This document shows, in pieces, positions 201 to 6,103 of a stretch of 64,000 nucleotides of DNA (positions are counted from its first letter, which is position 1; every line of letters starts with the position of its first letter). The position numbers and the translations under genes were made by a program. Where the stretch lies: NCBI RefSeq assembly GCF_021249345.1, contig NZ_CP089588.1, forward strand, positions 2,108,001 to 2,172,000, written 5' to 3'. Below the pieces are notes generated by a model, which saw nothing but the letters and a program-made list of their open reading frames with translations, was not told the origin of the DNA and did not search any database. Origin of the DNA: Halobacterium wangiae. Lineage in GTDB: Archaea; Halobacteriota; Halobacteria; Halobacteriales; Halobacteriaceae.

Positions 201-692
201 GTCGCCGGTATCGACGCCTGAGGCTTCGACCGAAGCCACGCCTCGAACCACTACACGAAGCGGGCGAAGCTCACGATTCAGCAGTTGAAAGTCACATTGT
301 TGGTCGATACGAGAGCGAACGCAATTCTTGATCTGTACATAATGACGACCAGAAAACACGATACACAGATTGCACCAGCACTCATCAATCGGAACACCGA
401 CGATGTTGCGATTCTCCTCGGAGACAAGGGCTACGACGACCGGGAGATCCGCACGTTAGCCCGTGAAAAGGAGGTGCGTCCGCTCATCAAACACCGCGAG
501 TTCTCGTCGCTCCACAAGGCGTGGAACGCGCGACTAGATGCTGATCTGTACGGCCAACGAAGCCAGAACGAGACAGTAAACTCCCGGCTCAAGCGCAAGT
601 ACGGTGCGTTCGTCCGCTCACGGCACTGGTGGAAACAATTTCGAGAACTCACTATCACCTGCCTCATTCACAACCTTGACCGATCACTCTAA
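201..692 (+). pseudogene. IS5-family transposase remnant (C-terminal part)
   Basis: The frame reads as the C-terminal two thirds of an IS5-type DDE transposase. A TGA at 219-221 breaks the first catalytic block (GIDA-stop-GFDRSHASNHY). After it the frame is open through the second Asp block (LLGDKGYDD) and the Glu block (QRSQNETVNSRLK), ending near FRELTITCLIHNL. The internal stop and the absence of a recognisable N-terminus make it non-functional. An internal TTG at 285 could start a 135-residue product, but that lacks the first Asp. It marks the left side of the accessory strip that ends at the tRNA-Ser gene. I did not find terminal inverted repeats. Confidence 0.75.
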
Positions 693-1826: not shown

Positions 1827-2282
1827 ATGTCAAAATGTGCGCTAGCCCAGTTAGAAGCGTCGAGTCGCGTGATCAAGCGAGCCCAGTACGAAGCCTTCGA
1901 ATTCGAACTCCAAAATACTGGAGTACTAGTTCGGAATCACAGTCACGAGAACCCGAGTGAGCACGAGTATCTGGTGACGCTCAGGGATGGGATTCCCTCG
2001 AGTTGTGAGTGTCCGGCGAACGCGTGCTTCGAGGGCGCGTGCAAGCACCGTGTGGCGGTTGCAATCCGCAAACCCATCCTTGAGGCTGCAACCAGTCAGG
2101 AGCTCGTGGCTGACGGCGGCCCAACCACGGAGAGCAGTACTGCGAGCAACCCCGGATTCTCGGAGGCGTCCGAGGACGAATCCAAAACCGATTCTAGTCG
2201 GGTTGATTGTGATTGTTCGGGTCTCTCCGGGGAGTTTCCGTGCTGGGAGTGCTATCGGAATGGACGAAAAGAGCTGCCCTAA
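1827..2282 (+). CDS. SWIM zinc-finger protein
   Basis: This is a 151-residue protein. Its middle carries a SWIM-type zinc site: CEC (about residues 59-61), then C and the CKH triad (ACKHRVAVAI) near 71-73. SWIM fingers bind DNA or protein partners, and in haloarchaea small SWIM proteins often sit near insertion sequences. Downstream is a Ser/Thr/Glu-rich linker (about 90-125) and then a second Cys cluster, CDCSGLSGEFPCWECYRNG, which could be another zinc site. No enzymatic domain is visible. Regulation may run through the leader element shared with the next gene. DNA binding is inferred from the family only. Confidence 0.8.
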   Translation: MSKCALAQLEASSRVIKRAQYEAFEFELQNTGVLVRNHSHENPSEHEYLVTLRDGIPSSCECPANACFEGACKHRVAVAIRKPILEAATSQELVADGGPTTESSTASNPGFSEASEDESKTDSSRVDCDCSGLSGEFPCWECYRNGRKELP

Positions 2283-2457: not shown

Positions 2458-2670
2458 ATGTCTCTGAGTAACACCTACGAGTGTGGCTTCGACGAAGAGA
2501 ACGGTAAAACAATCAGTAAGGACACCTGCCCGGAGTGCACGGGGAATCTTGGGGCTGATGGTGGCGAAATCAGTTGCATGAAGTGTGGGCTCATCATCGA
2601 CGAAGAGCGCTTTGCGCGTGGTTGGGGCTGGGTGTCCTTTGAGGACGAGGCGAACCACCCGTTCGCGTAG
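2458..2670 (+). CDS. mini-TFB: free-standing TFIIB-type zinc ribbon
   Basis: This 70-residue protein corresponds to the N-terminal end of TFB. It has a four-Cys zinc ribbon (CPEC at 24-27, CMKC at 40-43) followed by IIDEERFARGWGWVSFEDE, which matches the B-reader start (compare [19 protein letters not shown] in the full TFB at 42993-43955). The two cyclin folds that bind TBP and DNA are absent. The ribbon docks on the RNA polymerase dock domain in TFB, so this protein could compete with or modulate TFB; that is inference. It could equally be a truncated tfb relic, but its own leader element and clean stop argue that it is expressed. Confidence 0.75.
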   Translation: MSLSNTYECGFDEENGKTISKDTCPECTGNLGADGGEISCMKCGLIIDEERFARGWGWVSFEDEANHPFA

Positions 2671-2821: not shown

Positions 2822-5629
2822 ATGTCAGACCAGCCTAGGGGACAGTTCATCGTGTGGTTCGATGATCAGGAGGCGGAGGACCTCGGGGTCACTGGTGGGA
2901 AGGGGGCGAACCTGGCGGTGTTGGCGGGGGCGGGCCTGCCTGTGCCGCCGGGGTTTGTCATTACCACTGCCGCGTACCATGACCTTGTGACCGCACCGGG
3001 TATTCAGGCTGCTGTCGAGCGACTAGACGCGGTTGAGGCGAGTGACTCTGAAGGGCTCGCGGCAGGCGCGGCTGAGGTTCGCTCGCTTATTAGGGCCCGG
3101 ACTTTTGACGCGGCTGTTGAGACGGCGGAGGCGGTGGCGTCGCTCGACGCAGACCGCTTTGCGGTTCGGTCGAGTGCAACTGCGGAGGACCTGCCGGGCG
3201 CGTCATTTGCCGGCCAGCACGAGACCTTCCTGGGAGTGCGAAGCGGCGACGTTCCGAACCGAGTTCGGGAGTGTATGGCCAGCCTGTTTACTGATCGGGC
3301 GGTGGCTTACCGGGCGCGTAATGGCGTTGAACACGCTAGCGTGGAGATGGCTGTCGTGGTTCAGCCGATGGTTGACGCGGCGGCCGCGGGCGTGCTTTTC
3401 ACTGCTGATCCCGCGAGTGGGAATCGGCGGGTGGCTGCGGTCGATGCGAGCTATGGCTTAGGCGAGAGCGTGGTTAGTGGCGAGGTCACGCCGGACCACG
3501 CGCTCGTACACAGGGAGACTGGTGAGGTACAGGAGTATCGGGTCGGCACGAAGACGTTCGCGGTCGAGGTGGATAGGTCCGAGACCGGGGACGGAGTTTC
3601 GGGGGCGGACGGTGACGTCGAAGGGGCTGGCGATGTAGGTGAGTCCGAGAATGCTGGCCGGGACGCTGCGGAGAGCGGGACCAGGCGCGTCGAGGTCTCA
3701 CCGGAGCGGCGGGACTCCCGCGTGCTCACCGACGAACAGTTGCGCACCCTGGTTGGCTTGGGCGAGCGGGCCGAGACGCTGCTGGAGGCGCCCCAGGACG
3801 TCGAGTGGGCGCTGGTGGACGGCAGGTTCGTCCTCCTGCAGTCTCGTCCAATCACGTCATTGTTCCCGGTCCCGTCGCCTGCACCCGAGGATGACCGCCT
3901 CCACGTCTACGTCAGTATGGGTCACATGCAGGCGATGCCGGAGGCGATGCCGCCACTGGTTCGGGATGTCTGGCGGACCTACACCGCTAACGCGTTCTCG
4001 ACATTCGGGGTGGACGCGAACCTGACGGTCGAGGCCGGGGGTCGGGTTTACATCGACGTCACGCCGTTCTTGCGCCGGCCGGGCCTGCGGTCCTGGTTGG
4101 TTGGGCGAATTGCCGCGATTAACGACCCTATTTCGGCGGGTCTCGAGGACGTTGTCTCTAGGCGGCCGGAGGAGTTTGGGCCGGGCGACGTCACCCTGGG
4201 GTCACTCCCGGGGTACGCCGCGACGACCGGGCGACTGGCCGCGCTGCTCGGTCCTGCGCTGCCGCGTATCGCCTGGCACCTCTTGGGCGCGCTGGGCGGC
4301 CGGGAGCCACCTGTCGACGAGGAGACTTGGGCTCTGATTGGTGACATGTTCGTTGGCAGCGCTCAGGAAGCTCAGACTACCGAGGAGCGGGCCCGGGCCG
4401 TGTTTGAGCCCCTGGATTTCGGGGAGTTCTTCCGGGAGGTCTATCCCCGGCTCAGCCCGCTGTTTCTCGCATTCGGGCTTGGTGGCTGGCTCATGCGGAC
4501 GTTCCCGGACAATCCCGAGGACGTGAATGCGGTCGGTCGTGGGTTCGAACGCGATGTGGTGACTCGCATCAACCTCGGCCTGGGTGACTTGGCTGACGTC
4601 GCCAGGGCGCACCCGTCGGTTGCGACGGCCCTCCGGGAGGGCGTCTCGCTCGCGGATTTGATGGGTGTGGAGGGCGGTGAGGCGTTTTGTGCGGCGTTCG
4701 AGGACTTCCTGGATGAGTTCGGCCACCGGGCCACGGGCGAGATCGATCTCAGTCGGCCGCGCTGGCGGGAGGATCCGTCTGTGGTCCTCGCGGTGGTCCG
4801 GGCGAATCTGGCGGTGGAGAGGCGGGGCGAGCATCGCGATAGAATCCGGGGGCTCGTTGAGGAGGCAGAGGCGGCCGCGTCGCGTTTGGAGGCGCGGGCC
4901 GACTATGGACTGTTTGGCCCGCTTCGTCGCCGGTACGTCCGTTGGCTGATCCGGACGTACCGCGAGACGGTCTACCTCCGGGAGTACCCCAAGCAGGAGG
5001 CTGCTCGGGCATTCACGGCCTGGCGGGATGCGCTACTGGACGCCGGTGACCAACTTGTAGATGAAGGCTCCCTGGACCGTCGGGAGGATGTCTGGTTCCT
5101 ACGCCGGGACGAACTCGTCGAGGCGTTGGACGGCGCGGATGCGGGGGAGGGTGACGGTGTGGCCGTGGACGTTGCGGGTCGTAGGCGGGAGCATGATCGA
5201 AATGCAAGTTTGGTCGCTCCGCCCGTGTTGACGAGTGAGGGCGAGACCGTTCGTGGGGGGCGGAAGCGAGAGGTGGCCTCCGAGTCGACTCTGGTCGGAA
5301 CTGGTGTCTCGGACGGCGTGGTCGAGGGGGTGGCGAGGGTTGTCCGAGATCCGGCGGTTGAGACGGTTGAGCGGGGTGAAATACTCGTGGCGCCCTCAAC
5401 TGACCCGGGGTGGACGCCGCTGTTTTTGAACGCTGCGGGCCTGGTATCGGAGGTCGGCGGGCACGTCAGTCACGGCGCACTGGTTGCCAGGGAGTACGGC
5501 CTCCCTGCGGTTGTCTCTGTGGCCGACGCTACGACGCGGATTCAAACTGGCGACCGGCTCCGAATTGACGGGGGCCGCGGAACGGTCGAACTCCTGGATG
5601 TGTCGGAGGGGTCTGAGAACGCGGGGTAG
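2822..5629 (+). CDS. rifampicin-phosphotransferase-like dikinase (ATP-grasp, central domain, phosphohistidine domain)
   Basis: This is a 935-residue protein. Residues 1-345 form the PPDK/PEP-synthase ATP-binding domain: LGVTGGKGANLA near 21-32, VRSSATAED at 115-123, QSRPIT at 340-345. Residues 360-800 form a mostly helical domain that starts HVYVSMGHMQAMPEAMPP, like the substrate domain of rifampicin phosphotransferase. The C-terminus is the swivelling phosphohistidine domain with VGGHVSHGALVAREYG, predicted catalytic His884. The PEP-binding TIM barrel of true PEP synthase is missing, so the ATP beta-phosphate would pass via His884 to another acceptor. A Gly/Asp/Glu-rich insert (about 252-300) looks haloarchaeal. 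Its base use is somewhat less GC3-biased than core genes. The substrate is unknown; rifampicin itself is only a family analogy. Confidence 0.8.
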   Translation: MSDQPRGQFIVWFDDQEAEDLGVTGGKGANLAVLAGAGLPVPPGFVITTAAYHDLVTAPGIQAAVERLDAVEASDSEGLAAGAAEVRSLIRARTFDAAVETAEAVASLDADRFAVRSSATAEDLPGASFAGQHETFLGVRSGDVPNRVRECMASLFTDRAVAYRARNGVEHASVEMAVVVQPMVDAAAAGVLFTADPASGNRRVAAVDASYGLGESVVSGEVTPDHALVHRETGEVQEYRVGTKTFAVEVDRSETGDGVSGADGDVEGAGDVGESENAGRDAAESGTRRVEVSPERRDSRVLTDEQLRTLVGLGERAETLLEAPQDVEWALVDGRFVLLQSRPITSLFPVPSPAPEDDRLHVYVSMGHMQAMPEAMPPLVRDVWRTYTANAFSTFGVDANLTVEAGGRVYIDVTPFLRRPGLRSWLVGRIAAINDPISAGLEDVVSRRPEEFGPGDVTLGSLPGYAATTGRLAALLGPALPRIAWHLLGALGGREPPVDEETWALIGDMFVGSAQEAQTTEERARAVFEPLDFGEFFREVYPRLSPLFLAFGLGGWLMRTFPDNPEDVNAVGRGFERDVVTRINLGLGDLADVARAHPSVATALREGVSLADLMGVEGGEAFCAAFEDFLDEFGHRATGEIDLSRPRWREDPSVVLAVVRANLAVERRGEHRDRIRGLVEEAEAAASRLEARADYGLFGPLRRRYVRWLIRTYRETVYLREYPKQEAARAFTAWRDALLDAGDQLVDEGSLDRREDVWFLRRDELVEALDGADAGEGDGVAVDVAGRRREHDRNASLVAPPVLTSEGETVRGGRKREVASESTLVGTGVSDGVVEGVARVVRDPAVETVERGEILVAPSTDPGWTPLFLNAAGLVSEVGGHVSHGALVAREYGLPAVVSVADATTRIQTGDRLRIDGGRGTVELLDVSEGSENAG

Positions 5630-5789: not shown

Positions 5790-5874
5790 GCCGAGGTAGC
5801 CTAGCCTGGCCAAGGCGGTTGCCTCGAAAGCAACTGTCCACACGGACTCAGGAGTTCAAATCTCCTCCTCGGCG
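5790..5874 (+). tRNA. tRNA-Ser(CGA)
   Basis: The acceptor arms are GCCGAGG (5790-5796) and CCTCGGC (5867-5873), with discriminator G at 5874. The anticodon stem GTTGC/GCAAC (5818-5822, 5830-5834) encloses loop CTCGAAA with anticodon CGA at 5825-5827. The long variable arm (about 5835-5850) is typical of serine tRNAs, and the T arm contains GTTCAAATC. No CCA is encoded, and a short T run follows. Confidence 0.93.
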
Positions 5875-5952
5875 CTTTTCAGGAACCAAACCGACCAGCG
5901 ACGGCTGTGTCGCTGGTCGTGCGGGTAGGTAAACGCCGTGAGGAGTTTGAAC
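5860..5952. repeat. tRNA-end/hairpin module, copy 1
   Basis: The module begins inside the tRNA with its last 15 bases plus CTT. It continues 33 bases on with a perfect 10-bp stem (5893-5902 with 5909-5918, loop GGCTGT) and, 39 bases after the stem start, a block AACGCCGTGAGGAGTTTGAAC. Copy 2 lies exactly 151 bp downstream with identical internal spacing. Confidence 0.75.
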
Positions 5953-6010
5953 CCTGCAAGACGCAGCGCGAACGCGAGTGAGTGACCGTCTTGCTCCGGT
6001 TCAACTCTCC

Positions 6011-6103
6011 ATCTCCTCCTCGGCGCTTCATTACTGCCTCACCGCAGAGCGACGCGTGTGTTGCTCTGCATGCGGTGAAACGAACGCCGTGGGGTGTTCG
6101 AAC
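6011..6103. repeat. tRNA-end/hairpin module, copy 2
   Basis: The module starts with an exact 18-base copy of the tRNA-Ser 3' end and trailer. The hairpin is 6044-6053 with 6060-6069 (loop GCGTGT), followed by AACGCCGTGGGGTGTTCGAAC at 6083-6103. Compared with copy 1, three consecutive stem pairs have changed on both sides so that pairing is kept, and one further pair became G-T. This indicates selection on RNA or cruciform structure. Confidence 0.75.

Follow-up and report, generated by a model that had tools for sequence, protein, structure and literature searches.

A predicted RPH-like small-molecule dikinase in a genomic island of Halobacterium wangiae

Described RPH-like proteins

Archaeal enzymes known to modify drugs or metabolites are, to our knowledge, few. 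The bacterial enzyme rifampin phosphotransferase (RPH) inactivates the antibiotic rifampicin. According to Stogios et al., RPH belongs to a wide family of small-molecule dikinases that has archaeal members (PMC4844700). HpeHI, CreHI and PpsAB contain an ATP-grasp domain, a swivel domain and an RPH-type substrate domain and phosphorylate phenolic hydroxyls (PMC12167813). ZPH1101, the zearalenone phosphotransferase of Bacillus subtilis, has a conserved His and a natural-product substrate (PMC11768653). Among haloarchaea, Chen et al. reported that the RPH-like protein PspR of Haloferax mediterranei, which is 35% identical to the Listeria monocytogenes enzyme (RPH-Lm), binds and represses the phaR promoter (PMC10948481); this PPS-like regulator is described there as a DNA-binding repressor for bioplastic (PHA) genes.

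The DNA analysed here, referred to as the window, is a 64,000-nucleotide stretch of H. wangiae (NZ_CP089588.1, positions 2,108,001 to 2,172,000 of the forward strand) that encodes a new member of this known family, hereafter the window protein. The window protein has the same three-domain order as RPH-Lm (5hv1, 5fbs), the same whole fold as predicted here, and identical residues at 11/11 catalytic-site positions. It differs from RPH-Lm in overall sequence (33% identity) and in its clade, and has none of the 11 rifampin contacts in common with it. Its domains are also those of HpeHI, CreHI and PpsAB, although these consist of two polypeptides and the window protein of one chain. ZPH1101 is bacterial and is likened to the window protein by description, not by sequence. 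Phenol phosphorylation by the relatives HpeHI and ZPH1101 is counted in favour of the reading that we consider probable, namely that the window protein is an RPH-type ATP-dependent dikinase that would modify a small, non-rifamycin hydroxylated molecule in an accessory role.

Domain architecture and predicted fold

The features of the locus, in window coordinates, are as follows.

2822..5629 (+): RPH-like small-molecule dikinase gene, 935 aa, intact ORF with an ATG start
2840..3856 (+): ATP-grasp domain, residues 7-345, with K27, R116, T135, E328, Q340 and R342 (Pfam, alignment)
3572..3685 (+): acidic low-complexity linker within the ATP-grasp domain, about residues 251-288, predicted to be disordered (pLDDT)
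3857..5266 (+): predicted central substrate-binding domain of the RPH type, about residues 346-815, with Q370 and R720-E721-K724 (alignment, model)
5279..5599 (+): swivel phosphohistidine domain, residues 820-926 (Pfam, structural alignment)
5471..5473 (+): codon of His884, the counterpart of the catalytic His825 of RPH-Lm (alignment)
5790..5875 (+): tRNA-Ser(CGA), conserved, flanking the island on its right

Pfam detected PPDK_N (E 5e-82) and, at residues 850-920, the PEP-utilizers mobile domain (E 7e-23); the PEP/pyruvate-binding barrel was absent from the Pfam matches. The domain order given in the original prediction, an ATP-grasp, a central and a phosphohistidine domain (His884) with no PEP barrel, is thus confirmed by Pfam and by alignment. 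The typical block that it placed at the opening of the central domain was also found, around SMGHMQAMPEAMPP, which aligns with SVAHQQMMTDAMKP of RPH-Lm. Across 39 aligned sequences, the window protein included, Q370 is invariant and H368 is at least 90% conserved.

The closest PDB sequence matches are the Listeria RPH entries 5hv1, 5fbs and 5hv2 (E about 1e-128). None of the 25 NCBIfam models listed reached its cut-off. PRK06241 subfamilies, which carry the name phosphoenolpyruvate synthase, scored highest, with up to 714 bits (cut-off 945); the rifamycin phosphotransferase model NF041857 gave 608 bits, under its curated cut-off of 999, and PEP_synth TIGR01418 gave 344 bits, under its cut-off of 739.75. 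No PADLOC defence model matched.

An AlphaFold2 model built from the alignment of 39 sequences had a mean pLDDT of 87.1 and a pTM of 0.86, with pLDDT below 50 in both ends and in the acidic linker (256-283). The top Foldseek match of the model was RPH-Lm 5hv1 (TM 0.79 by model and 0.87 by target). VIA-align superposed 828 of the 847 residues of 5hv1 (Z 38.3, rmsd 3.4), so that the match covers the central domain, and residues 7-345 aligned with 5hv6, the isolated ATP domain of RPH-Lm. A comparison of the predicted structure with RPH had been proposed as a check on the RPH-like assignment, and the model matches Listeria RPH, central domain included. With an ATP-grasp domain, an RPH-type central domain and a C-terminal swivel His domain in a single chain, the modelled protein is supported as a member of the RPH-like small-molecule dikinase superfamily.

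The names of the best NCBIfam subfamilies could suggest a PEP synthase or another core carbon-metabolism enzyme, as could a VIA-align match to PEP synthase 2ols at Z 36.2, but this match extends over 307 residues only. PEP synthase identity was rejected on the domains, with no Pfam PEP barrel and a central domain that matches RPH, and on the predicted fold. Close homologues occur in just 2/26 genomes of the host family, the host counted (E <= 1e-100), and the host has a separate PEP-synthase-like gene elsewhere in its genome. A core metabolic role of either kind thus has next to no probability; domains, predicted fold and catalytic-site residues all bear out the earlier assignment to RPH-like proteins and not to PEP synthase.

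PigC and RedH link two natural-product precursors by way of phosphoryl activation. NCBIfam matches of the window protein to RedH (357 bits) and PigC (338 bits) would agree with a dikinase-type ligase of this sort, but both scores are far under the cut-offs (1350 and 1300, respectively), and no biosynthetic gene was recognised in the 13 of 40 island ORFs scanned. We regard a ligase as quite improbable.

Phylogeny, catalytic site and substrate pocket

A quick maximum-likelihood tree of 82 rows was calculated with SH-aLRT support only; its non-haloarchaeal rows were hand-picked from the best 80 matches to the window protein, and its distant branches are thinly sampled. The 50 haloarchaeal rows form one clade (SH-aLRT 100), joined by six further rows (five Myxococcota and one unassigned MAG). 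Within it the window protein belongs to a clade of nine (SH-aLRT 100), here called the window clade. Listeria RPH, Streptomyces rph and Bacillus velezensis ppsA lie in a separate group, and annotated RPH do not group with the window protein in this quick tree. Close homologues were found in 51/392 genomes of the host order (E <= 1e-120, the host counted) and in 18/170 genomes of the family of G073 (taken to be Halorubrum sp. PV6), where a search with the central domain alone returned the same 18/170. Among 314 plasmid records with a match, 23 cover at least 80% of the query at one place, including records from Haladaptatus, Halorubrum, Natrinema and bacteria.

Residues were compared across 81 aligned proteins, of which 50 are haloarchaeal, 28 come from other loci and 3 are controls; a Rhodococcus row (L155) was dropped as too divergent. 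The RPH-Lm positions used represent both half-reactions and comprise K22, R117, T136, E297, Q337, R666, E667, K670 and H825, together with Q309 and R311, which we take to be catalytic-site positions. The other nine are named in PMC4844700. All 11 are identical in the window protein (K27, R116, T135, E328, Q340, R342, Q370, R720, E721, K724 and H884) and are kept in all 9 members of the window clade, and at least 10 of the 11 are kept in all 50 haloarchaeal rows, where the sole changes are T136 to S in three rows and E667 to D in six. Rifampin resistance or phosphorylation is lost when K22, R117, T136, R666 or E667 of RPH-Lm is altered, while E297A leaves resistance unaffected and Q337 is called not central (PMC4844700). 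The catalytic argument therefore weighs on K22, R117, T136, R666, E667 and the His.

The substrate pocket gave a different result. At the 11 rifampin contacts of RPH-Lm, as named in PMC4844700, the window protein has M369, W384, a gap, A399, N400, T402, I411, I430, V540, Y541 and A727, none of them identical (0/11), with the alignment uncertain near the loop containing T354-M359, where another alignment set Y387 at T354. The median number of identical contacts is 0 in the window clade, 1 in the 50 haloarchaeal rows (maximum 4) and 2 in 26 other rows (maximum 4), one of which is a Methanosarcina MAG. The five RPH-clade rows have a median of 7, with one outlier at 1, and Streptomyces rph and B. 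velezensis ppsA keep 5 and 8 of the 11 contacts, respectively.

These data bear on whether the window protein could be a genuine rifamycin phosphotransferase. Its predicted fold and its catalytic-site residues are those of RPH, and Stogios et al. predict rifamycin inactivation for their clades B and C, where sequences from Haloferacaceae and Natrialbaceae are found (PMC4844700). RPH-Lm also stays active after the single pocket changes Y351F, V368T and V368E (PMC4844700), so that the lost contacts make rifamycin binding less likely without excluding it. Sensitivity to rifampicin exists in some haloarchaea: Haladaptatus cibarius is reported to be sensitive (PMC4571117) and Halorubrum sfaxense resistant (PMC3132631). 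The original prediction had expected another substrate on the ground that rifampicin is not a drug against archaeal polymerases, an argument that is weaker than stated given these reports. The expectation itself is supported by the aligned residues and the tree, in which all 11 rifampin contacts are lost and the clade is separate from RPH. The NF041857 score, well short of its cut-off, and the relative PspR, reported not to phosphorylate rifampin (PMC10948481), also speak against rifamycin as the substrate, and we consider this function very improbable. RPH-like architecture is thus supported for the window protein and RPH function is not. A halocin-type substrate, which had also been suggested, found no support here; halocins are peptides or proteins (PMC6759562).

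The preferred reading, an RPH-type dikinase with a non-rifamycin substrate, implies a mechanism whose order of steps is taken from RPH-Lm. The ATP-grasp domain would activate ATP, and His884 on the swivel domain would accept the beta-phosphate, leaving AMP and Pi as products. The swivel domain would then shuttle the phosphate to the central domain. There, the R720-E721-K724 group and Q370 would pass it on to a hydroxyl group of the substrate, a small organic molecule that is probably mostly non-polar and not a rifamycin. The role would likely be accessory: the modification of a phenol or another hydroxyl-bearing compound, foreign or from secondary metabolism, either to detoxify it or to trap it so that it can be broken down. 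The window protein, RPH-like, mobile, seemingly complete in its catalytic site and different in its pocket, is a concrete candidate for screens aimed at an archaeal substrate, be it an antibiotic or an aromatic compound.

PspR and relatives, TetR partners and the genomic island

The report on PspR raises the alternative that the window protein is a transcriptional repressor, its central domain binding promoter DNA and not a small molecule. For PspR, this claim draws on a 2.55-fold ChIP-qPCR enrichment at the phaR promoter, a 3.18-fold increase of the reporter in log phase in the pspR deletion strain, point mutations that alter DNA binding and reporter activity, and the lack of rifampin phosphorylation noted above (PMC10948481). 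In the same source, however, EMSA shifts appear only at protein:probe ratios of at least 50,000:1. None of the 50 haloarchaeal rows has lost the catalytic His or the R-E-K group that serves the second transfer; six have D at E667. No PHA synthase was found in the H. wangiae genome (0 matches to PF07167 and TIGR01836; TIGR01836 was positive in 9/21 haloarchaeal genomes searched, with the host one of the negatives, and among haloarchaea PF07167 was tried on the host only). PHA regulation would then not be the task of the window protein in this host, unless a divergent synthase was missed, and is disfavoured. Together with the conserved catalytic residues, this makes an enzyme likelier than a repressor.

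A branch present in genomes G101, G156, G206, G224, G398 and G437 was taken to be PspR-like; only G398 has a TIGR01836 match (1/6). TetR and dikinase genes overlap in 4/6 loci of this branch (L143, L144, L145 and L152, but not L141 and L142), and the effect of a pspR deletion could therefore be indirect. For the surroundings of the four phaC genes, the legend in PMC12863089 names an HTH gene and does not state which one. PspR itself was not recognised among 128 proteins searched for its five named residues (F340, W360, E377, W380 and R519) by exact position and by spacing. Judged by spacing, W360 probably corresponds to W384 of the window protein, and W380 seemingly lacks a tryptophan counterpart. 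G156 and G398 each contain a window-type copy and a PspR-like-branch copy, and the two lineages thus look separate. We consider a PspR-type repressor unlikely for the window protein. The conservation pattern casts testable doubt on the published conversion of an enzyme to a DNA-binding repressor.

The association with TetR genes extends beyond this branch. In seven loci a TetR gene overlaps the dikinase gene or, once, ends 180 bp before it, and TetR_N was confirmed in the 4/4 scanned by Pfam. A first profile was made from these seven haloarchaeal TetR genes and applied to dikinase genes with at least 700 bp of upstream sequence. It detected a same-strand TetR gene directly upstream of 19/67 bacterial genes (RPH clade counted), 12/39 other haloarchaeal genes and 0/8 window-clade genes; because the seed genes are counted among the haloarchaeal hits, 19/67 is the independent count. 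A second profile, widened with the first hits, was applied to both strands of 102 distinct genes with at least 900 bp upstream. It placed TetR directly upstream in 26/62 bacterial cases (23 same strand, 3 divergent), 9/27 other haloarchaeal cases (8 same strand, 1 divergent), 0/8 of the window clade and 0/5 of the RPH clade, against a background expectation of 0.011 per gene (about 1%). The bacterial groups include one Methanosarcina MAG, and kinship limits the independence of these counts, since 12 of the 26 bacterial TetR cases are from Paenibacillus; the remainder are from other Bacillota, Myxococcota, alphaproteobacteria and one unassigned MAG. In Halorubrum sp. Atlit-26R, three tandem RPH-like dikinase genes follow one TetR gene (L007:3282-11413), and two tandem dikinase genes occur in each of L116 and L146.

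The frequent upstream TetR gene suggests that the relatives are enzymes which a ligand induces and whose substrates are foreign or secondary compounds. In these relatives the compound would probably induce the dikinase through the TetR regulator, and this recurring partner offers a handle on the inducer. For the window clade, which has no such regulator (0/8), the induction argument applies by kinship only. A more tentative proposal, which we hold to be possible but rather doubtful, is that the haloarchaeal clade comprises archaeal ligand-induced phosphotransferases (TetR and dikinase) that inactivate or trap brine natural products, with PspR a working enzyme whose effect on PHA is indirect. 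If so, the clade would be an archaeal counterpart of the antibiotic-modifying enzymes. No earlier description of TetR-coupled RPH-like dikinases was found in titles and abstract starts of the open-licence literature, and no mention of TetR was found in PMC12167813 or PMC4844700; as far as this search extends, the coupling is new.

The original prediction had placed the gene in an accessory strip, and it was correct to do so. A 36.3-kb stretch (own-genome 2077361-2113659), which ends 30 bases past the dikinase stop codon, has no counterpart there in the two siblings compared, G014 and G017, and its GC content is 0.55-0.64 in 4-kb steps, compared with 0.675-0.695 to the right. The block to the right of the dikinase gene (tRNA-Ser(CGA)-leuA-DUF192-HNH) is core: leuA (E <= 1e-120) is present in 8/12 sibling genomes, the host not counted, and the 8/8 sibling loci fetched (10 kb each, one only 6 kb because of its contig end) contain all four block genes and nothing that matches the RPH-like protein. 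The sibling G010 has a more distant dikinase copy elsewhere in its genome. RPH-like genes also occur in or near the leuA-DUF192-HNH block of G410, G224 and G206, in other positions and other subclades, and we read the block as a probable hotspot and this synteny not as a sign of orthology.

The genes next to the window copy do not point to any pathway. Among the 13 of 40 roughly called island ORFs, outside the window, that were scanned by Pfam are two long PGF-CTERM surface proteins, a HerA-type ATPase, a drug-type ABC exporter, an MFS gene and an HTH_10 regulator. The exporter and the MFS gene are several kb distant, and we claim no link between them and the dikinase. The two PGF-CTERM proteins are S-layer-like and similar to each other; 2 kb separates them (L166:14751-17246 and L151:3-2492), in the part of the island that lies upstream of the window. 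Aldehyde ferredoxin oxidoreductase-type genes adjoin window-clade dikinases in L115, L134 and L139, with MoaD/ThiS-like genes in L115; they were set aside as a substrate lead, as two of the three loci are from one genus and the window copy has no such gene.

Within the window, the left flank of the dikinase gene contains an IS5-family transposase remnant at 285-692 (+), which matches the latter half of the family model only and has a 157-bp match elsewhere in G014. A SWIM zinc-finger protein at 1827-2282 (+) has a homologue in the Halogranum rubrum locus (L006/L138) that bears a window-clade dikinase. The 70-aa ORF at 2458-2670 (+) clusters with longer ORFs near the dikinase genes of L143, L138 and L006; that of L143 is a TFB (TFIIB) gene by Pfam, and the short ORF looks like the N-terminal zinc-ribbon remnant of such a gene. 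On the right, the 3' end of tRNA-Ser(CGA) at 5857-5880 is repeated at 6009-6030, about 150 bp downstream (tctcctcctcggcgctt). A second partial tRNA-Ser(CGA) match is also present in the sibling loci L156 and L160, and these repeats possibly mark an old integration scar at the tRNA gene.
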